Source of the DNA: Pseudonocardiales bacterium
Lineage (GTDB): Bacteria; Actinomycetota; Actinomycetes; Mycobacteriales; Jatrophihabitantaceae
NCBI GenBank assembly: GCA_030840445.1
Contig: JAVEEN010000075.1
Span: 1 to 35,973, forward strand
DNA: 35,973 bases
Direction: 5' to 3'
The first letter of the stretch is position 1, and each line of letters begins with the position of its first letter. The notes beneath the pieces were generated by a model. It had not been told where the DNA came from, searched no databases, and worked only from the letters and a program-made list of their open reading frames with translations. A program made the position numbers and the translations under genes. This document shows, piece by piece, positions 10,881 through 35,781 of this stretch.

Positions 10881-13397
10881 ATGCCGCCCGATGCGGAAAC
10901 GAACCAGGTATTTTCCGGCGTGCGGGTCCTCGACCTGTCGCGGTGGGTGGCCGGTGAGTTCGCCACCAAACTGCTGGCGGACTTCGGCGCCGAGGTCATC
11001 AAGGTCGAGAAGCCGCGAACCGGAAGCCTCACCCGTCAATGGGGGCCGTTCCCCAGGGATGTCCAAGATCTGGAATGTAGCGCGCTGTTCCTTCATCTGA
11101 ACACCAATAAGCGCTCAATCGCGCTTGACCTGACCGGCGCCGAAGACCGCGAGTTGCTGCTACGGCTCGTGGCGGGCTCAGATGCCCTGGTCGAATCCTT
11201 CCGACCAGGCCAACTCGAGCGACTGGGGCTCGGTCCGGACGTGCTGCACGCGGTGAACCCGCGGCTGGTCGTCACCCGGATCAGCGCGTTCGGCCAGGAC
11301 GGACCGTACCGGGACCGCGAAGCGACCGGCCTGGTGTTGCAGGCGATGGGAGGCCCGATGCATTCGACCGGCGACGCACACCGGGCGCCGCAGCGAAAAC
11401 CTGGCAATCTAGAGAACTATTCGATCGGTCGCGCGGCCGCCGAGGCGACCTTGGCGGGATTGATCTACACCCGACGAGCCGGCACCGGATCGATCATCGA
11501 CGTTTCGGGCCAGGAGGTACTGCTGTCAGGAGGGGATCGTCGAGCCTCCTACCTGCTGGCAGCTTCCTACGCCGGCACCGATGCACCGCGTGGCATTCGC
11601 AGTGCCCACCGCGGCCAGTCGAAGTTCACCGGCCCGTTCAAGACCAAGGACGGGTACGTGGTCATCTACATAACCAACCAGGCCTTCTGGGATCGCTTCG
11701 TGGACCTGATCAGCAGCCCGGATTCGGACTTTCACCAGAAGTATTTCGGCAAGCAGATCATGCTGGAGGATTGGCAGGAATTCCGGAAGTACGTGGCGGA
11801 CTGGTTCGCCCAGCGTCCCAAGCTGCAGGTCATGGAGGACGGCGAGGCCGCCCGAATCCCAGTGACGGCATTCCTGGAAATGCACGAACTGCTAGCGCAC
11901 CCCCACTTCCGCGAGCGCGGCGTATTCGTCGCCGCCGACCATCCGGTTGCCGGCACGCTGGAATACATCGGCGCTCCCTGGCGAATGGCCAACGGCTACC
12001 GGCTTCGGCATACCGCGCCGTTGCTAGACCAGCATTCGAGTCAGATCCGGGCCGAGCTGGACCGCAGCGCGCCGGCAACGCCGCCGAGCACTATCAGCTG
12101 GCCTTCGCCGAAGCCAGGAACAGCCAGTCGGGCACCGCTGGAAGGGATCCGAATCGTGGATCTCACGGTCGTGTGGGCCGGCCCCGGTGGCACGGCACTC
12201 CTCGGCGATCTCGGTGCCGAGGTGATCCGTATCGAGGGGAACAACCGGATCGCGCGGCAGGCTTCGGCCAGCCAAACCAAGGAGTCGATGGCCACAACCG
12301 GCTATAGCGCGGCGATGTTCCCCGATCGCGAGCCACAGCCACGGCCTTATGACCGCAGTGCGATCTTCAACTGGCACTCGCGCAACAAGCTGGCCGCCAC
12401 CGGCAATCTCGAGACACCCGAGGGCCACCGGGCCATCCTCGAGCTGATCAAGATCAGCGACGTGTTCATCGAGAACAACTCCAACGGAACCCTGGAAAAG
12501 CTCGGCCTCGGGCACGAACAGCTAATGGAAATAAATCCACGGCTGATCGTCGTTCGGATGCCGCCGATGGGCATGACGGGTCCGATGAGCACTTACCTCG
12601 GTTACGGTCCGAACTTCAACGCGCTGGTCGGCATCGCCGCCATGGACGGCTACGAGGGCGAGACGCCCGACACCGCCGGAGACAACTATCACATGGACGA
12701 AGCCACGCCCACGGGAGTCGCGATCGCCGTCCTGGCCGCACTCTGGGACCGCGAACGAACCGGCGAGGGCGGCCTGGTCGAATTTGCGCAGTCCGAGAAC
12801 GTCATGCAGGACATCGGCGAGTTCGTCCTGGACAGGCAGCTGAATCAGCGCAATCCCAGGCTGCTCGGCAACGCCGATCCGTACCTGCTACAGGATGTAT
12901 TTCCCTGTCGGGAGGACGACCGGTGGATTGCGATCTCGATCCGGAACGACCAGGACTGGGCGGCGGTTCGCTCGGTCATAGGTGCTGCGGACTGGCTGGC
13001 TGACGGCGACACCGCCGAACTACGGGTGCGCAATTCCGTCCCGTTGCGGCGCCATCTCACCGACTGGACGCGGGATCGGCCATCCGAGGCCATCCTTGCC
13101 GCGCTGCATGCGCTGGCCGTGCCCGCCGGAGAGGTCATGTCAGAGCTGCGCCTGCTCAGAGATCCGCATCTGGCTGCGCGGGACTGGTTCAAACTCCGGT
13201 CCCATCCCAACGTGGGTACCCACCGCTACCCGGGCCATCCATGGCGGGCCCAAGGATTCGACACGATGTTCGGTCGTCCGGTGCCGGCTTTCGGCGAGGA
13301 CAACGAATACGTCTACAAGCAGTTACTGGGTTATTCCGACGCCGAGTACGACTCCCAGGTCGAGCGCCGGTTGATCAGCGACGAGCAGTTTGCATGA
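10881..13397 (+). CDS. Double-domain family III CoA-transferase (CaiB/BaiF type, tandem fusion)
   Basis: The 838-residue product contains two full CaiB/BaiF domains. The first is about residues 8-390 (GVRVLDLSRWVAGEFATKLLADFGAEVIKVE) and the second about 415-838 (GIRIVDLTVVWAGPGGTALLGDLGAEVIRIE). The family transfers CoA between acids through an aspartyl-CoA intermediate. By motif spacing the second half keeps the aspartate (HMDEATPTG, D606), while the first half has Asn at that place (ENYSIGR, N179). ORF start TTG 10836 lies in the operator, whereas ATG 10881 sits about 9 bases after a possible transcription start and has no Shine-Dalgarno, so a near-leaderless start is likely. It probably activates a carboxylic acid intermediate, using another CoA ester as donor. 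It begins an operon with MaoC and Ltp2-like genes. Confidence 0.88.
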   Translation: MPPDAETNQVFSGVRVLDLSRWVAGEFATKLLADFGAEVIKVEKPRTGSLTRQWGPFPRDVQDLECSALFLHLNTNKRSIALDLTGAEDRELLLRLVAGSDALVESFRPGQLERLGLGPDVLHAVNPRLVVTRISAFGQDGPYRDREATGLVLQAMGGPMHSTGDAHRAPQRKPGNLENYSIGRAAAEATLAGLIYTRRAGTGSIIDVSGQEVLLSGGDRRASYLLAASYAGTDAPRGIRSAHRGQSKFTGPFKTKDGYVVIYITNQAFWDRFVDLISSPDSDFHQKYFGKQIMLEDWQEFRKYVADWFAQRPKLQVMEDGEAARIPVTAFLEMHELLAHPHFRERGVFVAADHPVAGTLEYIGAPWRMANGYRLRHTAPLLDQHSSQIRAELDRSAPATPPSTISWPSPKPGTASRAPLEGIRIVDLTVVWAGPGGTALLGDLGAEVIRIEGNNRIARQASASQTKESMATTGYSAAMFPDREPQPRPYDRSAIFNWHSRNKLAATGNLETPEGHRAILELIKISDVFIENNSNGTLEKLGLGHEQLMEINPRLIVVRMPPMGMTGPMSTYLGYGPNFNALVGIAAMDGYEGETPDTAGDNYHMDEATPTGVAIAVLAALWDRERTGEGGLVEFAQSENVMQDIGEFVLDRQLNQRNPRLLGNADPYLLQDVFPCREDDRWIAISIRNDQDWAAVRSVIGAADWLADGDTAELRVRNSVPLRRHLTDWTRDRPSEAILAALHALAVPAGEVMSELRLLRDPHLAARDWFKLRSHPNVGTHRYPGHPWRAQGFDTMFGRPVPAFGEDNEYVYKQLLGYSDAEYDSQVERRLISDEQFA

Positions 13398-13413
13398 CCC
13401 GAACGGAGTTGAT

Positions 13414-13938
13414 GTGAGCGAAACCGAGACCGAGTCCCTGATAGGTGACGAGGCACGCGCGGCGATCGGTTCGGAGCTGGGCCGCGCCGTCGGCACGGTC
13501 GTCAAGAAGGAATTCCAACGTTGGGCCGCGGCGGTCGGTGACCGCAACCCGCTGTATTTCGACGAAAATTACGCCCGTGCCAACGGATACCGCGACGTGG
13601 TCATGCCACCCATGTACCTCGCTCACGTCACCGGAGGAGTGGTGGACCTCGACGAGCTTCGGCCTGACGGAATCCCGATCAGGTCCGGCGGCTCCGGTTC
13701 TGTCCAGCTACCCAGGTGCCCGCGCCGAATGGCGGGCGGTGATGACATCACGTTCCTCGAGCCGGTTCACGCCGGCGATGTCATCACCTCGGTCCGATCG
13801 CTGGCGGGCCTGGAACAGAAGTCCGGTCGATCGGGTGATTTTGTCCTGATGCACTTTCGCACCACATACACGCGAGATGACGGGGTACTGGTCGCCGAGA
13901 CCGCCAGTTCGTTGATCGCCCGACCAGCCAATTCCTAG
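13414..13938 (+). CDS. MaoC-like hydratase subunit, N-terminal hot-dog type
   Basis: This 174-residue hot-dog protein matches the N-terminal MaoC/FAS1-like dehydratase domain: IGSELGRAVGTVVKKEFQRWAAAVGDRNPLYFDENYA, then GYRDVVMPPMYL. In split enoyl-CoA hydratases this subunit is usually non-catalytic and builds the acyl pocket. The catalytic His of GDxNPxH is Tyr here (GDRNPLY), which fits. The ORF track starts at TTG 13390; I prefer GTG 13414, preceded by CGGAG and starting nearer the fold. It lies 16 bases after the CoA-transferase and 11 before the partner gene, so a heteromeric hydratase is expected. In cholesterol side-chain breakdown a comparable split hydratase (ChsH1-ChsH2) works with the aldolase Ltp2. 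Confidence 0.82.
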   Translation: MSETETESLIGDEARAAIGSELGRAVGTVVKKEFQRWAAAVGDRNPLYFDENYARANGYRDVVMPPMYLAHVTGGVVDLDELRPDGIPIRSGGSGSVQLPRCPRRMAGGDDITFLEPVHAGDVITSVRSLAGLEQKSGRSGDFVLMHFRTTYTRDDGVLVAETASSLIARPANS

Positions 13939-13949
13939 ACGGGACGACG

Positions 13950-14387
13950 ATGGCTGAGCAGATCTACTTCGAAGACGTCAACGAGGGCGACGAGATACCG
14001 AGCCTGTCGCTCGAGGTCGACCGCGTACAGATGTTCTTCTTCAGCGCGGCGACGTACAACGGGCACCGCATTCACTACGACCAGAGCTGGGCGCAGGGTG
14101 TCGAGGGGTACCAGGACATCCTCGTTCACGGTCCGTTGCAGGTGGCGCTGCTGGCTCGTGCCATCACCGATTGGGTCGGCGGTCGCGGCAGGTTGGTGAA
14201 CTACGCCGTCCAGAATCGTGCCACCGCGTTCCCAGGCGAAGAGCTCCGGTTCAAGGGCACCGTGACCGGCAAGCGGGAAGAGGGCGAAACCTGCCTGGTC
14301 GAGCTGAAGGTACACGGCGAAAAGGGTTCAGGGCAGATCCTGATGCCTGGTACGGCAACCGTGCGCCTACCCAGGCGAGGTCGGTGA
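13950..14387 (+). CDS. MaoC-like enoyl-CoA hydratase, catalytic-type subunit
   Basis: This 145-residue single hot-dog protein carries the variant active-site segment FFFSAATYNGHRIHYDQSWA and the later DILVHGPLQVALLA. This is the NxHRIHYD form seen in mesaconyl-CoA-hydratase-like and MaoC C-terminal domains; its His and Asp/Asn would activate water for addition to an enoyl-CoA. Together with the preceding subunit it should form a two-part hydratase. The start ATG 13950 follows a GGGACGACG stretch. Its TGA overlaps a GTG of the next gene (GTGATCATG), a sign of coupling to the Ltp2-like gene. Confidence 0.85.
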   Translation: MAEQIYFEDVNEGDEIPSLSLEVDRVQMFFFSAATYNGHRIHYDQSWAQGVEGYQDILVHGPLQVALLARAITDWVGGRGRLVNYAVQNRATAFPGEELRFKGTVTGKREEGETCLVELKVHGEKGSGQILMPGTATVRLPRRGR

Positions 14388-14389
14388 TC

Positions 14390-15589
14390 ATGGGCCTTCG
14401 CGGCGAAGCCGCGATCATCGGCATGGTCGAACTTGCCCCGCACCGCAAGCCGACCCGTACGCCGCGCTTTTCCATCGAGCAGTGGGCCTTGCTGTCGGCC
14501 TCGGCTCTCGCCGACGCAGGCATCGACGCGAGCAGCGTGAACGGACTGATCAGCAGCGGCATCTCGGAGTCGGACAAGTTCGCGCCGGCGACCCTGTCGG
14601 AATACCTCGGCATTCCGATCAATTATGGTGAGGTCGTCGATCTCGGCGGCGCCACGGCAGCGGGAATGGTTTGGCGCGCGGCCGTTGCTGTCGAACTCGG
14701 GTTGTGCGACTCGGTGTTGGTCATGTTGCCCGGCTCGCGAGACTTTCCGACTTCGAGCCGACGTCCGGCCGCCGACCGCGGCTACTCCGGCGCGTCCAGC
14801 AACAACTTCGGTTCGCCTCAAGCCGAGTTCGAGATCCCCTACGGCAACCTCGGCCAGAACGCCCCGTACGCCCAAATCGCCAGGCGTTACGCCAGCACGT
14901 TCGGTTATGATCCGCGCGCCACCGCCAAGATTGCGGTCGACCAGCGGACCAACGCATGCGCAACACCGGATGCCGTCTTCTACGGCAAGGCGATCACGGT
15001 CGAGGACGTCCTCGCGAGCCCGATGGTCGCCGATCCGATTCACATGCTCGAGATGGTGATGACCTGCCACGGCGGCGCCGGAGTCATCGTCGCCAATGCC
15101 GAGGTGGCGAAACGGAGCCGCAATCGACCGGTCTGGATCAAGGGCTTCGGTGAGCGAATCTCCTACAAGACCCCGACCTACGCCGAAGATCTGCTCCGCT
15201 CACCGATCTCCCAGGCCGCGCAGACAGCCTTCGGCATGGCGGCCATCGGGCGGGACGAGGTAGACGTCGCTTCCATCTATGACTGCTACACGATCACGGT
15301 GCTCATGAGCCTCGAGGACGCCGGCTTCTGTGAGAAGGGCAAGGGGATGGAGTTCGTCAGTTCGCACGATCTGACTTTCCGCGGTGACTTCCCGCTCAAC
15401 ACAGCGGGGGGCCAGTTGTCCTTCGGCCAGGCCGGCATTGCCGGCGGCATGCACCATGTGTGCGACGGCGCGCGCCAGATCATGGGCCGCGCGGGTGCCG
15501 CCCAGGTCCCAGACTGCAACACCGCCTTCGTATCCGGCAACGGCGGCATCATGAGCGAGCAGGCCGCGCTCATCCTCCAGGGCGACTGA
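14390..15589 (+). CDS. Thiolase-fold acyl-CoA lyase/aldolase, SCP2/Ltp2-like
   Basis: A 399-residue SCP2-thiolase-family protein. The N-terminal half has GLRGEAAIIGMVELAP. The C-terminal half has DVASIYDCYTITVLMSLEDAGFC followed by the glycine-rich NTAGGQLSFGQAGIAGGMHHV. Where true thiolases have the nucleophilic cysteine (NNNCATGS in SCP-x), this one reads DLGGATAAG, with Gly replacing Cys. That matches Ltp2-type retro-aldolases acting on beta-hydroxyacyl-CoA, so I expect C-C cleavage of the MaoC product rather than Claisen thiolysis. ATG 14390 is chosen because AGGCGAGG is well spaced; GTG 14384 is an alternative. A DUF35 partner follows after 10 bases, as usual. Confidence 0.85.
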   Translation: MGLRGEAAIIGMVELAPHRKPTRTPRFSIEQWALLSASALADAGIDASSVNGLISSGISESDKFAPATLSEYLGIPINYGEVVDLGGATAAGMVWRAAVAVELGLCDSVLVMLPGSRDFPTSSRRPAADRGYSGASSNNFGSPQAEFEIPYGNLGQNAPYAQIARRYASTFGYDPRATAKIAVDQRTNACATPDAVFYGKAITVEDVLASPMVADPIHMLEMVMTCHGGAGVIVANAEVAKRSRNRPVWIKGFGERISYKTPTYAEDLLRSPISQAAQTAFGMAAIGRDEVDVASIYDCYTITVLMSLEDAGFCEKGKGMEFVSSHDLTFRGDFPLNTAGGQLSFGQAGIAGGMHHVCDGARQIMGRAGAAQVPDCNTAFVSGNGGIMSEQAALILQGD

Positions 15590-15599
15590 TGGAGCACTC

Positions 15600-16007
15600 G
15601 TGACCAACAAGCCGATGCCTGAGCCGACCCCGGTCAGCGCACCGTTCTGGCAGTCCCTCCGCGAGCACCGGATTCGCATCCAGTACTCGCCAGCTGCCGA
15701 GCAGTACGTGTTCTATCCGCGCATCCTGGCGCCGCGCACACTGGCCGACGACCTCGAATGGCGTGATATATCCGGCCACGGGACCCTCTACACATTCACA
15801 GTCGGCGACCGGCCGACCGCACCGCCGTGGAGCGACTCGCTGCCTCAATTGCTTGCCGTGGTCGAGTGGGACGAAGGTCCCCGCGTGAGCACCGAAATCG
15901 TCAACGCCCAGCCGGGCGAGCTGAAAGTCGGCATGCGCGTCCAGCCGGTCTTCTGCGACTACCCGGACGATGGCATCACCCTGCTGCGCTACGAGCCGGA
16001 GAACTGA
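15600..16007 (+). CDS. DUF35 OB-fold partner of the thiolase-fold protein, zinc-ribbon cysteines missing
   Basis: A 135-residue protein with the DUF35 layout: helical start (APFWQSLREHRIRIQYS), a rubredoxin-like zinc-ribbon region, then an OB fold (DLEWRDISGHGTLYTFTVGDRP ... LLAVVEWDEGPRVSTEIV). Family members normally have CxxC...CxxC before DLEW. Here the segment reads SPAAEQYVFYPRILAPRTL with no cysteine at those places, so zinc binding there is lost. DUF35 proteins usually cap or stabilise Ltp2/SCP2-type thiolases and are needed for their activity. GTG 15600 follows TGGAG. The gene is directly between the Ltp2-like gene and the BVMO. Confidence 0.82.
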   Translation: MTNKPMPEPTPVSAPFWQSLREHRIRIQYSPAAEQYVFYPRILAPRTLADDLEWRDISGHGTLYTFTVGDRPTAPPWSDSLPQLLAVVEWDEGPRVSTEIVNAQPGELKVGMRVQPVFCDYPDDGITLLRYEPEN

Positions 16008-16009
16008 CT

Positions 16010-17614
16010 ATGCAAGATTCTGCTGACAGTCACGATGTTGTGGTCGTGGGTGCTGGTTTTGCCGGGTTGTACGCGGTGCAGCATGTGCGGTCGTTGGGGT
16101 TTTCGGTGCAGGGTTTCGAGGCCGGTAGCGATGTCGGTGGAACCTGGTATTGGAATCGGTATCCCGGGGCGCGTTGTGATGTGGAGAGTGTGGATTATTC
16201 GTACTCGTTCTCTGAGGAGTTGCAGCAGGAGTTCGAGTGGACCGAGCGGTTCGCTGGGCAGCCGGAGATTCTGCGGTATATGCAGCATGTGGCGACCCGG
16301 TTTGATCTGTACCGCTCGATCCAGTTCGACGCCCGGGTGGTCAAGGCCCGCTATGACGAGCAGGGGCGGCGGTGGCAGGTGGAGCTGGAATCGGGGGCGA
16401 TGTGCTCGGCCCGGTTCCTGGTGTTGGCGACCGGGCCGTTGTCGGTGCCGCTGGTGCCCGAGGTCGCGGGCATGTCGACGTTTGAGGGGTCGGTGTATCA
16501 GACCAGTCAGTGGCCCAAGACCGAGGTCGATTTCACCGGCCAGCGGGTGGCGGTGATCGGGACCGGTTCCTCGGGGATCCAGTCGATTCCGGTGATCGCC
16601 GAGCAGTGCGATCAGCTGTATGTTTTCCAGCGGACCGCGAACTTCAGCATCCCCGCCCAGAACAGCGCCCTGACCCGCGAAGCCCTCGACCAGATCAAAG
16701 CCAACTACCCCGAACGCCGCCGACTGGCCCGCGAGGACCGGATCGGGACCCCATACCGGTATCGGCCCTATGGCGTGATGGAGGTGGATGAACAGGAGCG
16801 GGCCAGAGCCTTCGAGGAGGCTTGGCAACGCGGCGGCACCCACTTCACCAAGTCGTTCACCGACATCGTGCGCAACGAGGACTCCAACAAGTACGCAGTC
16901 GACTTCGTGCACCGCAAGATCAAGGCCATCATCGGTGATCCAGAGCTTGCCGATGCGTTGCTGCCGAAGGACCACCCCCTGGGCAGCAAACGAATCTGCG
17001 CCGACACCAACTACTACCAAACCTACCTCCGCGACAACGTCACCCTCATCGACCTCCAACGCACTCCCCTGGTCCAGCTGTATGACACCGGCATCCGCAC
17101 CACCACCACCGACTACCCCATCGACAGCCTCGTACTCGCCACCGGATTCGACGCCCTCACCGGCTCATTCCTCGCCATCAACATCACCGGCCCCCGCCAC
17201 CAGACACTGCGCGACACCTGGCGCGGCGGCCCCCGCACCTACCTCGGCCTCGCCGTCGCCGGCTACCCCAACCTTTTCTTGCTCTCCGGTCCCGGCAGCC
17301 CCTCAGTACTGGCCAACATGGTCGCCACCGCAGAACAACAAGTCGACTGGCTCGGCAACCTCCTCACCCACTTACGCCAACACCACCTCACCACCGCCGA
17401 AGCCGACCCCACCGCACAAGACCAATGGGTCGAGCACGTCAACGAACTCGCCTCCCACACCCTCTTCATGAAAGCCGACTCCTGGTACCTCGGCGCAAAC
17501 GTCCCCGGCAAACCACGAGTTTTCATGCCCTACGTCGGCGGGCTGCACGCGTACCGCACGTTATGCGACGACATCGCCGCGTCGGACTATCGTGGTTTCA
17601 GCTTCACGGGATGA
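16010..17614 (+). CDS. Flavin-containing Baeyer-Villiger-type monooxygenase
   Basis: The 534-residue protein has FAD motif VVVGAGFAGLYAVQHV, the conserved GTWYWNRYPGARCDVES block, an NADPH-binding motif VIGTGSSGIQ and the late ATGFDALTG segment, all typical of class B BVMOs of the cyclohexanone/phenylacetone monooxygenase group. The BVMO fingerprint FxGxxxHxxxW reads FEGSVYQTSQW (F158-W168), with Gln164 in place of the usual His. BVMOs insert oxygen next to a ketone to give an ester or lactone. Codon choice changes sharply inside the gene: G/T-ending codons up to about 16640, then C/A-ending codons to the end. ATG 16010 is three bases from the DUF35 stop. It ends the plus-strand operon, convergent with the next gene. 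Confidence 0.9.
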   Translation: MQDSADSHDVVVVGAGFAGLYAVQHVRSLGFSVQGFEAGSDVGGTWYWNRYPGARCDVESVDYSYSFSEELQQEFEWTERFAGQPEILRYMQHVATRFDLYRSIQFDARVVKARYDEQGRRWQVELESGAMCSARFLVLATGPLSVPLVPEVAGMSTFEGSVYQTSQWPKTEVDFTGQRVAVIGTGSSGIQSIPVIAEQCDQLYVFQRTANFSIPAQNSALTREALDQIKANYPERRRLAREDRIGTPYRYRPYGVMEVDEQERARAFEEAWQRGGTHFTKSFTDIVRNEDSNKYAVDFVHRKIKAIIGDPELADALLPKDHPLGSKRICADTNYYQTYLRDNVTLIDLQRTPLVQLYDTGIRTTTTDYPIDSLVLATGFDALTGSFLAINITGPRHQTLRDTWRGGPRTYLGLAVAGYPNLFLLSGPGSPSVLANMVATAEQQVDWLGNLLTHLRQHHLTTAEADPTAQDQWVEHVNELASHTLFMKADSWYLGANVPGKPRVFMPYVGGLHAYRTLCDDIAASDYRGFSFTG

Positions 17615-17633: not shown

Positions 17634-18827
17634 TCAGCGGAATGCGTCCAGGCCGGTGAGTTGTGCACCGAGTACGAGGGTGTGCACCTCGTGGGTGCCC
17701 TCATATGTGTAAACGGTTTCGAGGTTGACCGCGTGCCGCAGGACGGGGTACTCGGTGGTGATGCCACTGCCGCCGAGGATAGAGCGCGCCTCGCGGCAGA
17801 TGTCCAGGGCCGCGCGCACATTGGCGAACTTGCCGAAACTGATCTGATGCGGCTTGATCTGGCCGGCATCCTTGAGATCGCCCAGCCTCCGCGCGACGAG
17901 TTGCGCCTGGTTCAACGAGACCGCCATGTCGGCCAACTTCTTCTGCGTCAATTGGAAACCTGCTATCGGCCTACCGAACTGGGTGCGGGAGCAGGCGTAA
18001 TCGATCGTCGCGGCGAGCGCATCCCGGGCCGAGCCCGCGACACCCCAGATGATGCCGTAGCGGGCTTCGGTCAGGCAGCCCAGCGGCCCGCTCAGCCCCC
18101 GTGCGCCGGGCAGCATCGCATGAGCGGGCAGCCTGACATCGTCGAGGACCAGCTCGCTGGTCACCGAGGCGCGCAGCGACAGCTTGTGGTGAACGTCGTG
18201 CGCGGTGAAGCCGGGTGTACCGCGCTCGACAAGGAAGCCCCGGACGCTGCCTTTCGTGCCGTCGGCCTCGTCCTCGGTGCGGGCCCAGACGACGGCCACA
18301 TCTGCGATGGAACCGTTCGTGATCCACATCTTCGCGCCGTGCAGGATCCAGTCCGTTCCGTCGCGTCGCGCTCGGGTGCGCATCGAACCCGGGTCAGAGC
18401 CGGCGTCGGGTTCGGTCAAGCCGAAGCACCCGATCAGCCTCCCCTCGGCCATCCCCGGGAGCCAGCGCTGCTTTTGTTCCTCGCTGCCGTAGGCATGAAT
18501 CGCATACATCGCGAGGGAGCCCTGCACGCTGACCAGCGAGCGCAGGCCAGAATCGACCGCCTCGATCTCAGCGCAGACGATCCCGTACTGGGTCGCGGTC
18601 GAACCCTGGCACCCGTAGCCCTCCAGGTGCATACCCAGCACACCCAGCGCACCGAATTCCTGCGCCAGGTCGCGTGCCGGCAGCTCGCCGCTCTCGAACC
18701 AATCGCGAATATTCGGCCGCAGCCGATCATCAGCGAATTTGCGAACCGTAGAACGCAGCAGCCGATTCTCATCTGCAACGTCGTCCTCGAGATCCAGCAA
18801 GTCAAGGCGGCCGCGCGCGTCACTCAT
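17634..18827 (-). CDS. Acyl-CoA dehydrogenase, glutaryl-CoA dehydrogenase-like
   Basis: A 397-residue enzyme that follows human glutaryl-CoA dehydrogenase closely in its motifs: LRSLVSVQGSLAMYAI, LIGCFGLTEPDAGSDPGSM, SLRASVTSELVLDDV, QLTQKKLADM and NLETVYTYEGTHEVHTLVLG. The Glu of YEGTHE is the expected catalytic base, and the R-S pair that contacts the distal carboxylate is kept. It may therefore oxidise a dicarboxylyl-CoA, with or without decarboxylation, late in the pathway. ATG 18827 is preferred over GTG 18845: an operator-borne TTGACA and a TACCAT element 19 bases away place transcription start almost at 18827, implying a leaderless mRNA. It is divergent from the FMO gene and shares operator copy 2. 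Confidence 0.9.
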   Translation of the reverse strand: MSDARGRLDLLDLEDDVADENRLLRSTVRKFADDRLRPNIRDWFESGELPARDLAQEFGALGVLGMHLEGYGCQGSTATQYGIVCAEIEAVDSGLRSLVSVQGSLAMYAIHAYGSEEQKQRWLPGMAEGRLIGCFGLTEPDAGSDPGSMRTRARRDGTDWILHGAKMWITNGSIADVAVVWARTEDEADGTKGSVRGFLVERGTPGFTAHDVHHKLSLRASVTSELVLDDVRLPAHAMLPGARGLSGPLGCLTEARYGIIWGVAGSARDALAATIDYACSRTQFGRPIAGFQLTQKKLADMAVSLNQAQLVARRLGDLKDAGQIKPHQISFGKFANVRAALDICREARSILGGSGITTEYPVLRHAVNLETVYTYEGTHEVHTLVLGAQLTGLDAFR

Positions 18828-18860
18828 AGGCCGGATGGTACCCACATGGCGCTTGCCGTT

Positions 18861-18878
18861 GTCAACACTCTCGTTGAC
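18861..18878. promoter_or_regulatory. Shared 18-bp operator, copy 2, in a divergent promoter
   Basis: GTCAACACTCTCGTTGAC has the same half-sites and spacer as copies 1, 3 and 4. Both edges read TTGACA outward. On the plus strand TTGACA (18874-18879), 18 bases, TTGAAT (18898-18903) precedes the FMO gene. On the minus strand TTGACA (18865-18860), 19 bases, TACCAT precedes ATG 18827. One bound regulator could close both promoters. Confidence 0.8.
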
Positions 18879-18965
18879 AGAGCGGCCTGGACTCCGGTTG
18901 AATGAGCAGCGTGGCGCCGCTCGCCAATCAGAGAATGTAGCGTTTCCTTCAGGGGAAGGACTGCA

Positions 18966-20759
18966 GTGACCGGTCGCGAGATGCCGAATTCGACAGCTGC
19001 CGACGACATCTTCGGCGCGTGGCTGACCAGGTTCGGAGCAGCCCTCGCGGACGGCAGTGTTGACGGAATCGTCGAGCTGTTCGTCGCCGACGGTTACTGG
19101 CGAGATATCCTCACGTTTACCTGGACCTATCAGACCTTCGCCGGACCTGCTGAGATCGCCGCCAGCATGAACTCGCGCCTGGACAGGGTAAAACCACGTC
19201 TGGTCCGGCCGGCAGCCGACCGCACCGCCCCCAGAATCGTGAGGCGTTCAGCCAAGACAGTCGTCGAAGCCTATTTCGATTTCGACACCGAGGTAGGTCG
19301 ATCCACCGGCTTCGTCCGACTGCTGCTCGACAACGACAATCCGTGCGACTCCAAGGCATGGATTCTGCTGACGGCGCTTCAGGAGTTACGCGGTCACGAG
19401 GAGCGAATCGGCGAGCGCCGCCCCACCGGCATCGAGTTCTCCCAGACGTTTGCGGGTGACAACTGGCTCGACCAGCGCGTCAAGCAGAGTCAGTATCTGG
19501 ATCGAGATCCCGAGGTGCTCGTTATCGGCGCCGGCCAGTCCGGCCTGATCCTGGCCACCCGGCTCGGCCAGATGGGCGCTGACACCCTTGTGCTGGAGCA
19601 GAAGCCACGCATCGGCGATGGCTGGCGAGATCGCTACCACTCGCTGACGCTGCACAACGAGGTCTGGGCAAACAGCATGCCGTACATGCCATTTCCTCCG
19701 ACCTGGCCGACGTTCGTCCCGAAGGACAAACTCGCAGGCTGGCTCGAGACCTATGCCGAAGCCATGGAACTCAATGTGTGGACCGGGACCGAATTCGTCG
19801 GCGCCAGCTACGACAAGGCCACCCGTACCTGGCTGGCCGAATTGCGGGGACTGGACGGCACGGCACGCACGGTTCGGGCCAAGCACGTGGTCCTGGCGAC
19901 CGGGGGCGCCGCTGGCGCACCTCACGTGCCCACCTTGTCGGGACTCGACACATTCACCGGCACCGTTATGCACTCCAGCCAGTTCACCAGTGGCACCGAC
20001 TATGCCGGCAAACGCACCATCGTGATCGGAACGGGCAACAGCGGACACGACGTCGCCCAGGACTTGCACGCCAACGGCGCCGCCAGCGTGACCATGGTCC
20101 AGCGCAGCCCCACCTGCGTACTGAGCCTGGTTCCGAGTGGAACCATGATCTACGCGCTGTACTCGGAGCATCAGGCCATCGAGGACCTCGACCTCATCAC
20201 CGCGGCGATCCCCTATCCGGTGCTCAAGGAGACCTATCAGTGGATCACGCGCAAGACCTGCGAGCTGGATGCGGAGCTCCTCGATCGCCTGCACGCCATT
20301 GGATTCGAGACGGACTTCGAACCGGACGAGACCGGTTTCTACATGAAGTACCTTCGTCGCGGCGGGGGTTACTACATCAACGTCGGCTGCTCCGACCTGC
20401 TGGCCAAGGGCGAGATCGGGTTGGTCCAAGCCCGCGACATCAACCGATTCACCCCCGACGGCTTGCTGCTGAACAACGGCGAGCAGCTCGATTGCGACCT
20501 GGTGGTCCTGGCCACGGGGTATGAGAACCAGCAGGAATTGGTGCGCCGGCTGCTGGGAGACGAGGTCGCCGATCGGGTCGGGCCGATCTGGGGTTTCGAC
20601 GAGAACTACGAGCTTCGCAACATGTGGCGGCGTACCAACCAACCAGGATTCTGGGTCATGGGTGGCAACCTGCTCGACTCCCGGATGCACTCGAAGTTCC
20701 TTGCGCTACAGATCAAAGCGGACCTGATCGGCGTACTGGACGGGCACCGGTCCGAGTGA
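18966..20759 (+). CDS. NTF2/SnoaL-domain fused flavin monooxygenase (FMO-like)
   Basis: The 597-residue protein has two parts. Residues about 10-150 look like an NTF2/SnoaL-type domain (WLTRFGAALADGSVDGIVELFVADGYWRDIL, KAWILLTALQEL). Residues about 175-597 are a flavoprotein monooxygenase with FAD motif VIGAGQSGLILATRLG, an FMO fingerprint FTGTVMHSSQF, NADPH motif VIGTGNSGHDVAQDL and LATGY. This fused form is found in fungal and actinomycete putative FMOs of unclear function. GTG 18966 follows AGGGGAAGGA. With one operator shared with the dehydrogenase, it belongs to the same regulon. Hydroxylation or BV oxidation of an intermediate is likely; the substrate is unknown. Confidence 0.87.
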   Translation: MTGREMPNSTAADDIFGAWLTRFGAALADGSVDGIVELFVADGYWRDILTFTWTYQTFAGPAEIAASMNSRLDRVKPRLVRPAADRTAPRIVRRSAKTVVEAYFDFDTEVGRSTGFVRLLLDNDNPCDSKAWILLTALQELRGHEERIGERRPTGIEFSQTFAGDNWLDQRVKQSQYLDRDPEVLVIGAGQSGLILATRLGQMGADTLVLEQKPRIGDGWRDRYHSLTLHNEVWANSMPYMPFPPTWPTFVPKDKLAGWLETYAEAMELNVWTGTEFVGASYDKATRTWLAELRGLDGTARTVRAKHVVLATGGAAGAPHVPTLSGLDTFTGTVMHSSQFTSGTDYAGKRTIVIGTGNSGHDVAQDLHANGAASVTMVQRSPTCVLSLVPSGTMIYALYSEHQAIEDLDLITAAIPYPVLKETYQWITRKTCELDAELLDRLHAIGFETDFEPDETGFYMKYLRRGGGYYINVGCSDLLAKGEIGLVQARDINRFTPDGLLLNNGEQLDCDLVVLATGYENQQELVRRLLGDEVADRVGPIWGFDENYELRNMWRRTNQPGFWVMGGNLLDSRMHSKFLALQIKADLIGVLDGHRSE

Positions 20760-20772
20760 CGTGCTAAACCAG

Positions 20773-21426
20773 CTAGGCGGGATCGTTGCGCAGGCCGTTA
20801 ACCAAAGTGTCCGCGAAAGCGGCGCCGATCGCGCCGGCGTCCGGCAGCGTGCCATCCTTGTCCCGGTACCAGCGGTGAGTCCAGTTGAGCATGCCGATAA
20901 TCCCGTAGGCGACCACCCGCGCCGGGGATACCGCACGGAGGCTGCCGTCATCCATACCTGACTGCACGATACCGATGACTGCGTCGTCGAAACGTCTGTT
21001 GATCTTTCTCATCTCGCGTGCCCAGCCGGATTTGCCATCGCCGAGGCGGTTCAATTCCTCCTGAATGTATACGAACAGGTAGGGGTAGTACTCGGCGTAG
21101 GAGGCCATCACGGACGCGATCAACAACTCGAGCTTGTGCGGTGCGGCGTCATCGAGGTCTCGAATCTCCTCCGCGCGACGCACGTTGGCTTCCGCGGCAT
21201 CGCGGACAACGTCCTGGAAGAGATCCTCCTTGCTCGCCACGTAGTAATAAAGCGAAGCCCGGTCGGTGCCAAGCGCTTCGGCTATGTCGCCCAGACTCGT
21301 GCCGCCATATCCCTTCGCCCGGAATACCCGGGCGGCAGCGTCCCGGATTTCACGACGCCGCTCCGTGTAGCTGGCGCTGCTGTCAGCAAGTGCCGCGGCG
21401 CGGCGGCGGCCGATACCGCTAGCCAT
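20773..21426 (-). CDS. TetR-family regulator, proposed controller of the GTCAAC-N6-GTTGAC regulon
   Basis: A 217-residue TetR protein. The N-terminal helix-turn-helix is TSLGDIAEALGTDRASLYYYVASKEDLF (about residues 42-69), followed by an all-helical ligand/dimer domain (YAEYYPYLFVYIQEELNRL, AYGIIGMLNWTHRWYR) as in KstR2/FadR-like regulators of acyl-CoA catabolism. ATG 21426 follows GGAG. It lies 93 bases after the DUF35 gene in the same direction, so it is probably the last gene of the operon that begins at operator copy 3. That would give autoregulation. It is the only full-length TetR gene in the window. A CoA ester as inducer is likely by family, but not shown. Confidence 0.9.
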   Translation of the reverse strand: MASGIGRRRAAALADSSASYTERRREIRDAAARVFRAKGYGGTSLGDIAEALGTDRASLYYYVASKEDLFQDVVRDAAEANVRRAEEIRDLDDAAPHKLELLIASVMASYAEYYPYLFVYIQEELNRLGDGKSGWAREMRKINRRFDDAVIGIVQSGMDDGSLRAVSPARVVAYGIIGMLNWTHRWYRDKDGTLPDAGAIGAAFADTLVNGLRNDPA

Positions 21427-25405: not shown

Positions 25406-26382
25406 GTCGTGACCCCATATCTCAACGACGTGTCGACCGCATCCACGATCCGGTCCATGCCGGGCAGGTACTCGTGTTCGAGAGCGGCCGCGGGATAAGG
25501 CGTGCTCATGGCGCCGACCCGAAGCGGTGGGGCCTTCAGAGCCGCGAAACAGTCACCCGCCACCCGTGCGACGAGTTCGCCACCGAACCCACCGAAGACG
25601 GGAGCTTCGTGGACCACCACCATCCGACCGGTCCTGGTCACCGAGCCGACCAGCATGTTGATCTCGAGCGGATTCAGCTTGAACAGGTCCAGCACTTCGA
25701 TGCTGACCCCTTCCTGCGCGAAGTACTCCCGCACGGCCAGGCACAGCTTGACGGTCGGCCCGTAACCGACCAGGGTCAGATCGCTGCCCTGGCCGGCGAT
25801 CCGCGCACCCGGCGCGTCCGGCTCCCGCTGCGCGAGTTCGCACTCCTCTTTCACCCAGTAGTCGTGCTTCGGTTCGAAGAAGATCACCGGATCGTCATCC
25901 TCGATCGCCTCACGCAGCAGCGCGTACCCCTGCGACGGCGTGGAGGGCGTGAACACCTTGAGCCCCGGGGTCGGGATGAAATACGCCTCAGGCGAATCAG
26001 AATGATGCTCGGCGGCACCGATGTTGCCGCCATAGGGCACTCGGATCACGACCGGCATGGTCTGCTGGCCACGCGAGCGGTACCTGAACCGCGATAGATG
26101 CCAAGTGATCTGTGCGAATGCCGGATAGACAAACGAATCGAATTGCATCTCGACGACCGGCCGATAGCCACCCATCGCAAGTCCCACGGCCGCGCCGACC
26201 AGCGTCGACTCCGAGATTGGAGTGTTCAACACGCGGTCTTCGCCGAATTGTGCGATAAGGCCATCCGTGACCCGGAAGACGCCACCCAGGTCGCCGACAT
26301 CCTCGCCCATCAACAGCACTCGGGGGTCTGCCTTCATCGAGTCGCTGAGTGCGGCGTTGAGCGCGGTCACGAATGTAGTCAC
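25402..26382 (-). CDS. 2-Oxo acid dehydrogenase E1 beta subunit
   Basis: The 326-residue protein is a typical E1beta (transketolase pyrimidine-binding and C-terminal domains): ALSDSMKADPRVLLMGEDVGDLGGVFRVTDGL, NTPISESTLVGAAVGLAMGGYRPVVEMQF, VIRVPYGG, and the C-terminal EVLDLFKLNPLEINMLVGSVTRTGRMVVVHEA. The ORF track begins at 26511, but GTG 26382 overlaps the E1alpha stop (GTGA) and gives the normal length. With E1alpha it decarboxylates a 2-oxo acid and acylates the E2 lipoyl arm. A branched-chain-like or pathway-specific keto acid is likely; specificity cannot be read directly. Confidence 0.93.
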   Translation of the reverse strand: MTTFVTALNAALSDSMKADPRVLLMGEDVGDLGGVFRVTDGLIAQFGEDRVLNTPISESTLVGAAVGLAMGGYRPVVEMQFDSFVYPAFAQITWHLSRFRYRSRGQQTMPVVIRVPYGGNIGAAEHHSDSPEAYFIPTPGLKVFTPSTPSQGYALLREAIEDDDPVIFFEPKHDYWVKEECELAQREPDAPGARIAGQGSDLTLVGYGPTVKLCLAVREYFAQEGVSIEVLDLFKLNPLEINMLVGSVTRTGRMVVVHEAPVFGGFGGELVARVAGDCFAALKAPPLRVGAMSTPYPAAALEHEYLPGMDRIVDAVDTSLRYGVTT

Positions 26383-27458
26383 GAAGTCGCCTGCGTTTCC
26401 TCGTTGAATGCGAGCCAGGCGCGGCGTTCGGCTTCCAGATGCTGAGGCCGGGTTCCGTAGACGTGATCGAAGATCTGTTCCGGCTGCACCGGTGGCGGAT
26501 CTGCGACGCACGCCGCCCGAACCGCGGTTGCGCAGACCTCGGCCTCCTGGTCGATGGCGTCGAGGTCCGACCGGGTGACGAGGCCCGCGCCAAGCACGAA
26601 ATCACGCATCCGGATGATCGGGTCCCGAAGTCGCCAGGTCGCAACCTCGTCCGCCTTGCGGTAGCGATCTGGATCATCGGAGGTCGTGTGCGGCCCGATG
26701 CGATAGGTCAACGCTTCGACCAGGGTCGGGCCCTCGCCAGCGCGGGCCCGCCGGGCCGCCCTGGCCGTTACCGCGTAACAACCCAGCACGTCATTACCGT
26801 CTACCTGCACACCCGGAAGGCCGAAGCCCTCGGATCGTCGATACAACGGAAGCGGTGCCGACCTCTCGACCGGGTTGGAAAGCGCGTACTGGTTGTTCTC
26901 GCAGAAGAAGACTACCGGCGACTTGTAGAGCGCGGACCACAGGAGAGACTCGTGGACGTCGCCGGTACCGAACGCGCCATCGCCGAGGTAGGCGATAACG
27001 GCGGCGTTCTTCTGATCCCGCCGCAAGGCCATGCCGTATCCGACCGCATGCGGGGCTTGGCTGCCGATCGGGAACGTGTAGAGCGCGATGCCACTTGCTT
27101 CGACACTCCAGCCGCCACCCTGAATCTCGCCGCGCCAGACCGAGAGCATCTCAGCGGGATCGATACCGACGGTCAGGCCGACGCCGAATTGCCGGCCCTG
27201 CGGGAAGGCCCGATCACCTGGCTGCAGCGCAGCGGCACTGCCAACCTGTGCGGCCTCTTGCCCGAACACCGGGCCCCAGAGCTTGAGGTATCCCTGTCGC
27301 TGCAGGTTTATCGCCTCGACATCGGCGCGACGCACGAGAATCAGCCGTCGGTAGAGCCCGATGATGTCCGCGTCACTGAGACCCAACGGGTAGTCAGGGT
27401 GCTCGGTAAACGTCCCATCCTCACTGAGAAGTTGGACGGCGGACGGGTCTAATTCCAT
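26379..27458 (-). CDS. 2-Oxo acid dehydrogenase E1 alpha subunit
   Basis: This 359-residue ThDP enzyme shows the ThDP/Mg motif GDGAFGTGDVHESLLWSALYKSPVVFFCENNQYAL and the usual RIGPHTTSDDPDRYR segment of branched-chain-type E1alpha. The ORF track start, TTG 27494, lies inside operator copy 3. ATG 27458 is chosen: on the minus strand TTGACA (27494-27489), 17 bases, TTCACT (27471-27466) puts the transcription start at about 27459, so the mRNA would be leaderless. It opens an operon E1alpha-E1beta-E2-thiolase fold-thiolase fold-DUF35-TetR. PHTTSDDP matches branched-chain/keto-acid types more than pyruvate enzymes, by recollection of the family. Confidence 0.92.
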   Translation of the reverse strand: MELDPSAVQLLSEDGTFTEHPDYPLGLSDADIIGLYRRLILVRRADVEAINLQRQGYLKLWGPVFGQEAAQVGSAAALQPGDRAFPQGRQFGVGLTVGIDPAEMLSVWRGEIQGGGWSVEASGIALYTFPIGSQAPHAVGYGMALRRDQKNAAVIAYLGDGAFGTGDVHESLLWSALYKSPVVFFCENNQYALSNPVERSAPLPLYRRSEGFGLPGVQVDGNDVLGCYAVTARAARRARAGEGPTLVEALTYRIGPHTTSDDPDRYRKADEVATWRLRDPIIRMRDFVLGAGLVTRSDLDAIDQEAEVCATAVRAACVADPPPVQPEQIFDHVYGTRPQHLEAERRAWLAFNEETQATS

Positions 27459-27489
27459 GTTCCCCAGTGAACCAATCTTGATCTGTGCT

Positions 27490-27507
27490 GTCAACAGGCA
27501 TGTTGAC
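27490..27507. promoter_or_regulatory. Shared 18-bp operator, copy 3, with divergent -35 boxes on both edges
   Basis: GTCAACAGGCATGTTGAC is flanked so that TGTCAAC...GTTGACA gives TTGACA on both strands. Plus strand: TTGACA (27503-27508), 17 bases, TACAAA (27526-27531). Minus strand: TTGACA (27494-27489), 17 bases, TTCACT (27471-27466). It is the clearest promoter/operator arrangement in the window and controls the E1/E2/TetR operon and the small SnoaL-like gene. Confidence 0.85.
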
Positions 27508-27588
27508 AGACGTGCTTGTGCATGTTACAAAGCGCGATGGAGAATGCTGGGACTGCACAGAACGTTAGACCGTGAAGGAGAGAATCCC

Positions 27589-27960
27589 ATTTCCGCTCCG
27601 GAGAATCATCGCGAGCTCATCGAATTCTATTTCGACCGGGTGGACAACCATGATGTCGACGCTCTCATGACCGTCTTTCACGAAGAAATTGTCTATCACC
27701 GCCCGGGTTACGAGCCACTCCGAGGTGCGGCCAGGATGCGGCAGTTCTACCAGGACGAGCGGGTCATCGACGTCGGTCGGCACTCTGTTGATCGAGTTCT
27801 ACTGGACGGCGACTATGCAGCCGCCTACGGCACCTTCGAGGGCACGTCACGGCAGGGCGCCGCCCTAGCGATGACATGGTGCGAGATCTACGGCTTCCTC
27901 GGTGACAAGATCAATTATCGGCGAAGCTACTTCTTCACCCCAGCAGCCATCCAGATCTAA
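27589..27960 (+). CDS. SnoaL/NTF2-like small protein, possible ATT start
   Basis: The product is a single NTF2/SnoaL-like fold: ENHRELIEFYFDRVDNHDVDALMTVFHEEIVYHRPGYEPLRG ... YGTFEGTSRQGAALAMTWCEIYGFLGDKI. Such proteins are small cyclases, isomerases, hydrolases or binding proteins. The start is uncertain. ATG 27544 lies about 6 bases after the likely transcription start, but the codons that follow (AGA, TTA, GGA) are unlike those in the gene. A strong AAGGAGAG at 27575-27582 is followed in frame by ATT at 27589 and no ATG or GTG, so a rare ATT start (123 residues) is plausible; with ATG 27544 it is 138. It is divergent from E1alpha and shares operator copy 3. Function unknown. Confidence 0.7.
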   Translation: MSAPENHRELIEFYFDRVDNHDVDALMTVFHEEIVYHRPGYEPLRGAARMRQFYQDERVIDVGRHSVDRVLLDGDYAAAYGTFEGTSRQGAALAMTWCEIYGFLGDKINYRRSYFFTPAAIQI

Positions 27961-33340: not shown

Positions 33341-33357
33341 CGTCCGACCTCACCGTC

Positions 33358-33375
33358 GTCAACTCCAACGTTGAC
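33358..33375. promoter_or_regulatory. Shared 18-bp operator, copy 4
   Basis: GTCAACTCCAACGTTGAC has the same half-sites and spacing as copies 1-3. It lies in the 103-base gap between the SDR and the LLM gene, both on the plus strand, and TTGACA (33371-33376) can serve as a -35 box. The matching -10 is unclear (AATGCT at 33394 or nearby). It should control the LLM-CoA-transferase-cyclase operon. Confidence 0.75.
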
Positions 33376-33402
33376 AGACGGCGTCCGGTCATAAATGCTA
33401 CG

Positions 33403-33418: not shown

Positions 33419-33443
33419 ACTCTCGGTGCCAATAGGAGGAACC

Positions 33444-34532
33444 ATGGACTACGGACTGTTGTTCGAGATGGGTATCCCCAAGCCTTGGACGGCCACCACC
33501 GAGGCAACGGCGTACTGGAACAGCATCGAGCAGGTGAAGGTCGCCGAGCAGTCCGGCTTCACGCACGCCTGGGCCGTCGAGCACCATTTCCGCGAGGAGT
33601 TCTCGCATATGGGCGCGCCCGAGATCTGGCTGGCGGCTGCCGCCCAGCACACCGAGACGATCCGGCTGGGCCACGGCATCGCGCTGTTGCCGACACCGTT
33701 CAACCACCCGGTCCGCGTTGCCGAGCGCATCGGCGCCCTGGACATCCTGTCCCATGGCCGCATCGATTTAGGCACCGGTCGTTCGATCGCCGAGCACGAG
33801 ATCGACGGCTTCGGCATCGATCCCGGTGACACTCGCGGGATGTGGGCCGAATCCGTGGAGCTGATGCAGAAGCTGTGGACGCACCGTGACGAGAACGTCA
33901 GTTTCGACGGGCAGTACGTGAAGCTGCCTCCGCGCAAGGTCTTTCCGCGTCCCGTGCAGGATCCGCATCCACCGATGTGGCTGGCCGCCACCAGCCCGCC
34001 CAGCTACCAGTTGGCTGGGGAGTACGGGCTCGGCGTGCTCGCATTCGGCATGGCTATCGACAAGGACGCGATGGGCCGCCGGCTGGCGGAGTGGCGCGCC
34101 GCCATGGCGACGACAACCCGCGACGTCTCGATGAAGAACGAGCAGGCGGCAATTTTCATGATGTCCTTTTGCGCTCCGACCGACGACGAGGCGATCGCGA
34201 CCTGCGAGCAGGCCTTCGTCGAATACCTCGACGTCACGATCGACCATTTCCTGCGCTGGGGCGAGAAGCGCGAACTGCCGCCGGGCTATGAGTGGTACGC
34301 CAAGGCGGTGAAGCAGGGCGCCCAGTCCGGAAAGGCCAAATTCGAGTACCTCATCGAGAACGGCATGGTGCTCGTCGGCTCGCCGGCCACGATCACAAAG
34401 ACCATCGAGGAGTTCAAGGACACCGGAGCGACACAGATGCTGGTCGCGATGCAGTTGGGCGCGATCCCGCATGAGAAGGTGCTTGAATCCATCAAGCTGT
34501 TCGGCAGTGAGGTCATCCCCAACGTCGGGTGA
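33444..34532 (+). CDS. Luciferase-like (LLM class) flavin-dependent monooxygenase
   Basis: The 362-residue protein fits the bacterial-luciferase TIM-barrel family: MDYGLLFEMGIPKPW, VEHHFREEFSHMGAPEIWLAAAAQHTETIRLGHGIALLP, NHPVRVAERIGALDILSHGRIDLGTGRS, and the nucleotide-contact region PPMWLAATSPPS. Members use FMNH2 or F420 and oxygen for BV oxidation, hydroxylation or desulfonation. It has the length and VEHHF motif of the FMN group. ATG 33444 follows AGGAGGAACC. It opens an operon with a CoA-transferase and cyclase gene, under operator copy 4. No flavin reductase gene lies nearby. Confidence 0.9.
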   Translation: MDYGLLFEMGIPKPWTATTEATAYWNSIEQVKVAEQSGFTHAWAVEHHFREEFSHMGAPEIWLAAAAQHTETIRLGHGIALLPTPFNHPVRVAERIGALDILSHGRIDLGTGRSIAEHEIDGFGIDPGDTRGMWAESVELMQKLWTHRDENVSFDGQYVKLPPRKVFPRPVQDPHPPMWLAATSPPSYQLAGEYGLGVLAFGMAIDKDAMGRRLAEWRAAMATTTRDVSMKNEQAAIFMMSFCAPTDDEAIATCEQAFVEYLDVTIDHFLRWGEKRELPPGYEWYAKAVKQGAQSGKAKFEYLIENGMVLVGSPATITKTIEEFKDTGATQMLVAMQLGAIPHEKVLESIKLFGSEVIPNVG

Positions 34533-34578
34533 CGACCTGATCGGTGCGGCGTCCATCCACGACAAGAGGAGGCATGGC

Positions 34579-35781
34579 GTGACCACGGCAACCGTTCCCG
34601 GTCCGCTGGCGGACCTGCGGGTGCTCGACGCGTCCAACCTCATCGCCGGGCCGTTGACGACAATGCTGCTTGCCGACCTTGGCGCGGACGTCATCAAGCT
34701 CGAGCATCCCCGCGGCGGCGACTCGCTGCGCACCCACGGCGCGCAGAAGGACGGCCATGGCCTGTGGTGGAAAGTGCTCGGGCGGGGCAAGCGCAGTGTC
34801 ACGCTGAATCTCAGCCATCCCCGCGGGCAGGAGGTCTTCCGGCAGCTGGCCGCCAACGTCGACCTCGTGGTGGAGAACTACCGGCCCGGCACCATGCAGC
34901 GGTGGGGGCTTGGTTACGACGTGCTCAGTGCCGCCAACCCGGGTCTGGTGATGGCCCACGTCACCGGCTTCGGACAGACCGGGCCGCTGTCGGCCAACCC
35001 CGGCTTCGGGACTCTGGCCGAGTCGATGAGCGGGTTCGCCAACCGCAACGGAGCGCCGGACGGCCCCCCGACGCTGCCTCCGTTCGGGCTGGCCGACACC
35101 GTTGCCGGTATCACCACCGCGTTCGCCGTCATGACGGCACTGTGGGCGCGGCGGATGACCGGGCACGGACAGGAGGTCGACATCTCGATCATCGAGCCGC
35201 TGCTCACCGTGCTGGAACCGCAACTGATCGAGTACGACCAGATGAACACCGTGATGGGCAGGATGGGCAACCGTTCACCCGTCAATGCGCCGCGGAACAT
35301 GTACCTGTCACGCGATGGCCGCTGGGTCGCGATCTCGACCAGCACCCAGTCCACCGCGGACCGTCTTCTCGTACTGGTCGGGCGTGCGGACTTTCTCGAG
35401 CAGGCCTGGTTTCAGAACTCCCACCAACGCGCTCAACACAGCGATGAGTTGGACGAGGCGGTCGGTTCGTGGGTACTCACCCGCGACGCCGACGAGGTCC
35501 TCGCGGCCTGCCGCGAAGCGGGTGCACCGGCCTCTGTGGTCTTCACCGTGCCCGATATTCTGCGCGATCCTCAGTACGCGGCCATCGGCGCCATCGCCAC
35601 AGTCGAGGATCCGGACCTCGGCCCGCTGCGAATGGCCAACACCCCGTTCAGATTGTCGGCAACGCCGCCGCGCATCCGGTGGTCGGGTCCGCGGCTGGGC
35701 GAACACACCGACGAAGTGCTCGGCAAGCTCGGTCTGAGTGCCGACGAACTGAGCGAGCTGCGCGGGCTCGGAGTGCTGTGA
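34579..35781 (+). CDS. Family III CoA-transferase (CaiB/BaiF type), single domain
   Basis: A 400-residue enzyme with LADLRVLDASNLIAGPLTTMLLADLGADVIKLEHPRGGD, NYRPGTMQRWGLGYDVLSAANPGLV, GFGQTGP and the catalytic-Asp segment FGLADTVAGITTAF, then TGHGQEVDISIIEPLL. By spacing to this last motif the Asp is in place, unlike the first half of the fused CoA-transferase at 10881. GTG 34579 follows AGAGGAGG; the longer ORF overlaps the LLM gene out of context. It is 46 bases after the LLM gene and overlaps the next gene by four bases. It probably activates a carboxylic acid with CoA from another acyl-CoA. Confidence 0.92.
   Translation: MTTATVPGPLADLRVLDASNLIAGPLTTMLLADLGADVIKLEHPRGGDSLRTHGAQKDGHGLWWKVLGRGKRSVTLNLSHPRGQEVFRQLAANVDLVVENYRPGTMQRWGLGYDVLSAANPGLVMAHVTGFGQTGPLSANPGFGTLAESMSGFANRNGAPDGPPTLPPFGLADTVAGITTAFAVMTALWARRMTGHGQEVDISIIEPLLTVLEPQLIEYDQMNTVMGRMGNRSPVNAPRNMYLSRDGRWVAISTSTQSTADRLLVLVGRADFLEQAWFQNSHQRAQHSDELDEAVGSWVLTRDADEVLAACREAGAPASVVFTVPDILRDPQYAAIGAIATVEDPDLGPLRMANTPFRLSATPPRIRWSGPRLGEHTDEVLGKLGLSADELSELRGLGVL

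Follow-up and report, generated by a model that had tools for sequence, protein, structure and literature searches.

A predicted TetR-family operator in an actinobacterial CoA-ester catabolic cluster whose arms often appear to serve as -35 boxes

Introduction

Among named catabolic regulators whose structure is known, KstR2 comes closest to the repressor considered here, with a distant similarity at the protein level. In organization, the present repressor resembles both KstR2 and BkaR: it is a predicted local TetR repressor, probably autoregulated, with palindromes before acyl-CoA dehydrogenase, thiolase and keto-acid dehydrogenase genes. The BkaR operator is GTTA(N)T(N4)A(N)TAAC (PMC3920632), and assignment of the present cluster to the BkaR regulon was rejected because this motif differs from the palindrome GTCAAC-N6-GTTGAC found here. 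Another system of this kind is that of EdcR in Caenibius tardaugens, a TetR repressor that likewise controls a catabolic cluster whose promoters are divergent, and for which the operator TnnCnnTACnAnTnGTAnnGnnA, overlapping the -10, was proposed (PMC8700777). There the operator lies over the -10, whereas in the family described here an operator arm would form the -35; the EdcR regulon was rejected as well, since its operator motif is different. By description alone, and as far as the accessible part of the source goes, SRTF1 of Pimelobacter (Nocardioides) simplex is similar too, being a TetR repressor whose 22-bp palindrome is located within a divergent promoter of an island of catabolic genes (PMC7062782); relatives of the present regulator occur in Nocardioides.

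With respect to promoter architecture, the bidirectional promoters described by Warman and colleagues, such as acrA/acrR, have a shared -10, and a distance of 18 (or 10, 23) bp between the starts is typical of them (PMC12825309). The likeness lies in the symmetry of the DNA, in the use of one short element for both strands, and in the fact that acrR encodes a TetR-family repressor. In the present family, in contrast, the -35s would stand back to back, with separate -10s and about 80 bp between the predicted starts, and a promoter of the Warman type was rejected on account of these differences in shared element and start spacing. The site of CrtR in Corynebacterium covers the -10/-35 between two divergent genes, and a leaderless transcript was reported for crtR (PMC5401885), but this regulator is of the MarR type, its site contains TTAA, and its target crtE has a 114-nt leader. 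For leaderless transcripts of mycobacteria, a 5'-terminal ATG or GTG suffices (PMC4633059). Thus, leaderless mRNAs and regulators that sit on a -35 are already known in actinobacteria. What seems particular to the present system is that the half-site is identical to the -35 hexamer whichever strand is read, an arrangement of which no description was found in a search limited to open papers. A literature search with the exact palindrome gave no relevant paper, and an operator of this TetR subfamily was not found described in the open literature.

Materials and methods

The window is a stretch of 35,973 nucleotides from a Pseudonocardiales bacterium (contig JAVEEN010000075.1), and the assembly that holds it (G000) measures 4.34 Mb. 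It was compared with a relative in the same family (G011), within a set of 24 genomes of that taxonomic family, and with regulator-linked stretches, of which 37 were scanned, one being the window and three coming from G011. Genome-wide palindrome counts are pattern searches. Gene calling relied on a codon model whose output for the window is consistent with the Pfam hits there; gene starts outside the window rest on this home-made caller. An arm was taken to be gene-facing if a gene start falls within 260 nt, and distances were counted from the end of TTGACA. The matrix used for scoring -10s was trained on relatives only.

Results

Regulator and palindrome

The window comprises a cluster for CoA-ester catabolism with a single TetR-family gene, and its features are collected in Table 1. 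The enzymes encoded are CoA-transferases, acyl-CoA dehydrogenases, thiolases with an OB-fold partner, a keto-acid-dehydrogenase set, and FMO-like and luciferase-like monooxygenases, and the target genes indicate CoA-linked breakdown of a hydrophobic acid. The regulator has a TetR_N DNA-binding domain (PF00440, 1.5e-14) and a TetR C-terminal domain (PF17932, 1.1e-16). Since its gene closes the leftward operon that starts at 27458, copy 3 of the palindrome would control the regulator itself, which is thus probably autoregulated. Outside the TetR cluster, the window holds a gene for a large protein with ricin-B-type lectin domains (1341-4172), next to a LacI-type regulator.

Table 1 Features of the window that relate to the four palindromes (distances are to the operator arm; G011 is a relative in the same family)
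Feature	Position	Strand	Remarks
Operator copy 1, AGTCAAC-GCATCC-GTTGACG	10822-10841		Found by pattern search
-35 TTGACA, upstream promoter of CoA-transferase operon	10796-10801	+	Predicted; conserved in G011
-10 TAGAGT	10819-10824	+	Predicted; exactly 17 nt past the -35; overlaps left edge of operator; conserved in G011
Operon read from copy 1	10881-17614	+	CoA-transferase, dehydratase-like, thiolase, FMO-like and others
Operator copy 2, TGTCAAC-ACTCTC-GTTGACA	18860-18879		Between acyl-CoA dehydrogenase (-) and FMO-like monooxygenase (+) genes
-10 TACCAT	18835-18840	-	Predicted; 19 nt from left arm; p about 0.04
Acyl-CoA dehydrogenase gene	17634-18827	-	ATG 18827, no Shine-Dalgarno, 33 nt from arm; predicted leaderless
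FMO-like monooxygenase gene	18966-20759	+	GTG 18966, Shine-Dalgarno upstream, 87 nt from arm; leadered
TetR-family regulator gene	20773-21426	-	TetR_N + TetR_C_24; last gene of leftward operon from copy 3
Operator copy 3, TGTCAAC-AGGCAT-GTTGACA	27489-27508		Between divergent E1-alpha (-) and SnoaL-like (+) genes; 28.2 bits with family matrix
Left arm as putative -35 TTGACA, leftward operon	27489-27494	-	From sequence and family position test
Right arm as putative -35 TTGACA, SnoaL-like gene	27503-27508	+	From sequence
Candidate -10 TTCACT	27466-27471	-	17 nt from arm; p about 0.13-0.17; conserved in G011
Candidate -10 TACAAA	27526-27531	+	17 nt from arm; p about 0.4; conserved in G011
E1-alpha gene	26379-27458	-	ATG 27458, no Shine-Dalgarno, 31 nt from arm; predicted leaderless
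SnoaL-like gene	27544-27960	+	ATG 27544, 36 nt from arm
Operator copy 4, CGTCAAC-TCCAAC-GTTGACA	33357-33376		One mismatch at outer edge; absent from the preliminary description
Weak -10 AATGCT	33394-33399	+	Downstream of copy 4
Luciferase-like monooxygenase and CoA-transferase genes	33444-35781	+	Downstream of copy 4; leadered

The exact core GTCAAC-N6-GTTGAC has four matches in the 4.34-Mb assembly, all of them inside the window (10822, 18860, 27489, 33357), and a control pattern searched in the same assembly has none. When three mismatches were allowed, the search of the window gave four palindrome matches. The palindrome is not a chance occurrence. Among the 24 genomes of the family, only G000 and G011 carry the regulator, that of G011 being a close orthologue (98%), and only these two have four palindromes; two other genomes have one stray exact core each. 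Comparison of the four copies between G000 and G011 gave differences at 0 of 48 arm positions and at 6 of 24 spacer positions (p = 0.0009); in this comparison the arms are conserved and the spacer is not. The arrangement of the window is kept in one other genome only, so that copies 2-4 are beyond deeper orthologous comparison; for the orthologues of the E1-alpha and acyl-CoA dehydrogenase genes in 20 genomes, the place was found to be kept in G011 only.

Remoter relatives of the regulator, 36-61% identical, were collected from further families and orders. A palindrome matrix with a threshold of at least 15 bits gave 110 sites in the 670 kb that the regulator-linked stretches cover, as compared to one in the reversed-sequence control, and a site is present in 31 of the 37 loci. 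The sites could belong to another regulator, of which the TetR gene is merely a neighbour, and several TetR-linked loci are indeed without a site (L072, L076, L084, L134, L145). Nevertheless, the operators track the TetR subfamily through many genera, mostly in actinobacterial clusters but also into a Caenibius contig, and the same-family genomes that lack the regulator have no site or a single stray one. Judged from this distribution, control by another regulator appears very improbable.

Operator arms as probable -35 boxes

If an operator arm contributes the -35, a -10 should recur at a fixed distance from arms that face a gene. In 129 de-duplicated gene-facing arms, the counts of the pattern TANNNT are 19 at 17 nt and 13 at 18 nt; no other position up to 61 nt has more than four, and these other positions average about 0.5. 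Arms that face no gene have it at 16-19 nt in just 1 of 53 cases. With stricter de-duplication and the window and G011 excluded, 32 of 120 arms still have TANNNT at 17-18 nt, with a binomial p of about 1e-24 for 17 nt and about 3e-15 for 18 nt, and matched -10s come from 25 loci. Of the 57 sites that are one-sided, 24 have the -10 at the facing arm and 2 at the opposite arm, and TTGACA is complete in the facing arm in 20 cases as compared to 7 for the opposite arm. About 60% of the gene-facing arms in the family are without a recognisable -10 at 17-18 nt. Since the position of the -10 is locked to gene-facing arms, the operator arm would often be a -35 box, and at the level of the family the notion of an operator that is also part of the core promoter may be considered well supported. 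The pattern is the trace to be expected of a double role as operator and -35, and for the family as a whole it appears to have no simple alternative.

The preliminary description had gone further and called the operator a symmetric core promoter part. The symmetry of the sequence and the family-wide -35 role agree with that; usual two-sided use does not follow. Among 41 divergent sites, a matched -10 is present on at least one side in 30 and on both sides in 4, where about 7 would be expected if the two sides were independent. A truly symmetric divergent promoter, in which both arms are -35s, with back-to-back competition between two polymerases and a repressor that shuts off both directions at once, would agree with the intact TTGACA in both arms of copies 2 and 3, with a site at position 4076 of locus L080 that is flanked by TAGCCT and, on the opposite side, by TAGGCT, and with the start codons of G011, which lie at 29-31 nt on either side of copy 3. 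The low number of two-sided sites argues against it, as does the absence of any operator with two good -10s in the window, and we regard such a promoter as distinctly unlikely.

Predicted leaderless start codons

An arm that acts as -35 leads one to expect a leaderless start codon about 29-34 nt beyond it. Among gene starts at this distance, with the window and G011 excluded, 10 of 16 lack a Shine-Dalgarno sequence, as compared to 25 of 106 at other distances (p = 0.003), and a matching -10 is present in 10/10 of the Shine-Dalgarno-less starts at 29-34 nt. A leaderless reading is thus supported for a subset of the family genes, as far as sequence patterns can indicate it.

The four operators of the window

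In the window, the arm would act as -35 most clearly at copy 2 in the leftward direction, where TACCAT is the only TANNNT at 16-19 nt past an outward arm of copies 1-4. Copy 2 had been thought to behave in the same way as copy 3. The geometry of ATG 18827 bears this out, as its distance and lack of a Shine-Dalgarno sequence place it in the leaderless class of the family, but the spacing is not 17 nt, the recognisable -10 being located two bases further away. At copy 4, the target ATG 33444 is 68 nt from the arm and is preceded by a Shine-Dalgarno sequence, AGGAGG, at 33434-33439.

Copy 1 is different. A leader of at most 9 bases before ATG 10881 had been proposed, which fails because a consensus promoter, TTGACA-N17-TAGAGT, lies upstream and overlaps the operator. 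The start predicted from it is near 10831, within the operator and about 50 nt before the ATG. Both boxes are conserved in G011, whereas the spacer varies. The layout also occurs in six arms of relatives, where the -10 is four bases ahead of the operator core; it was observed at loci L133, L135, L137, L138, L139 and L142. Together with copy 1, these relatives indicate at least two layouts in the family, one with the arm as -35 and one with the operator over the -10 and start site. A six-codon frame with ATG 10861 (10861-10883), which has GAGGTGG upstream and also occurs in G011, ends in a TGA that overlaps the ATG of the CoA-transferase gene (TGATG), and translational coupling of the two is possible. 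On its other side, copy 1 adjoins an ABC transporter set (6362-10492; permease, ATPase and binding protein) that resembles the 2-aminoethylphosphonate type, and no -10 facing this set was found on that side of the operator.

Copy 3 is the site on which the preliminary description was centred. That TGTCAAC-N6-GTTGACA provides TTGACA on both strands is exact to the base. The two boxes at 17 nt are also placed as was claimed, but their quality as -10s does not hold up: compared with TANNNT, TTCACT is without the A and TACAAA without the final T, and with the -10 matrix both score no better than random stretches. The claim that ATG 27458 is leaderless is favoured by its distance, by the lack of a Shine-Dalgarno sequence and by the leaderless class of the family to which it would belong, and is weakened by the chance-level -10. 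Alignments with E1-alpha homologues begin at residue 4. On the plus side, the distance between the arm and the in-frame ATG of the SnoaL-like gene is 36 nt in the window, as compared to 29 nt in G011. In the region 27544-27575, a 1-nt difference with locus L046 shifts the SnoaL-like reading frame and thereby switches the in-frame ATG; due to this difference between the window and G011, the start codon used on the plus side is uncertain. From the local sequence, the promoter half of the claim at copy 3 appears weakly supported.

This leaves room for the explanation that the palindrome is a plain TetR operator, that the DNA preference of the repressor produces the likeness to TTGACA as a by-product, and that the promoters of copy 3 are elsewhere, with the operator in the leader. 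Besides the chance-level scores of the chosen -10s, it can be brought forward for this explanation that the sole TANNNT in the 85-bp gap is a leftward TAACAT (27527-27522) located upstream of the operator, and that the promoter at copy 1 is not the arm-built one. However, no hexamer resembling a -35 precedes TAACAT at a distance of 17 or 18 nt, a by-product would not be expected to lock the -10s of the family to gene-facing arms only, and ATG 27458 and ATG 18827 are both at the leaderless distance of the family and are both without a Shine-Dalgarno sequence. We therefore consider a mere by-product unlikely, and prefer the reading in which the arm often serves as -35, which in the window would apply to copy 2 in the leftward direction and to copy 3 with weak -10s.

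Discussion

The preferred reading, which we consider likely, is that the TetR-type protein encoded at 20773-21426 represses the surrounding CoA-ester catabolic cluster via the four palindromes, with an arm that often would serve as -35, mRNAs of which some would be leaderless, and a second layout at copy 1. Four things are read directly from the DNA: the palindromes themselves, their association with the regulator, the place of the -10 across the family, and the spacing of the start codons. In the absence of ligand, a repressor dimer would cover each palindrome. The ligand is probably an acyl-CoA of the pathway or a related compound; it would be made or taken up in the pathway, and its binding would release the repressor. 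The outward arm GTTGACA would often hold the -35 hexamer of the promoter on that side, the -10 being 17-18 nt further on, so that repressor and sigma domain 4 would compete sterically for the same bases. For a subset of genes, transcription would begin at the start codon and yield a leaderless mRNA. In the copy 1 arrangement, the promoter would be one step upstream, with the repressor positioned over the -10 and start site. Where -35 boxes stand back to back, they are 8 bp apart, and two polymerases would therefore probably not be bound together. A more far-reaching proposal, in which the half-site of a widespread TetR subfamily has come to match the sigma-A -35 hexamer, and the 20-bp palindrome serves both as operator and as a back-to-back pair of -35s for two leaderless divergent promoters, with joint repression and, after release, competition between two polymerases, is one to which we would give little credence.

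An operator that doubles as -35 is a neat economy and not a new kind of machine. If the recognition sequence of the repressor and the -35 of the polymerase are merged in the same bases, a change of either is constrained and direct competition between the two is predicted. The 110 predicted sites provide a sequence handle on this TetR subfamily, and also a way to predict leaderless starts.

The Caenibius contig (L049), which is alphaproteobacterial, holds a relative of the regulator as well as the same operators, which suggests transfer between phyla. Tandem operators are frequent in the family, with a spacing of 18-23 bp, or about two helical turns (L048, L050, L075, L078, L081, L082, L140, L141).
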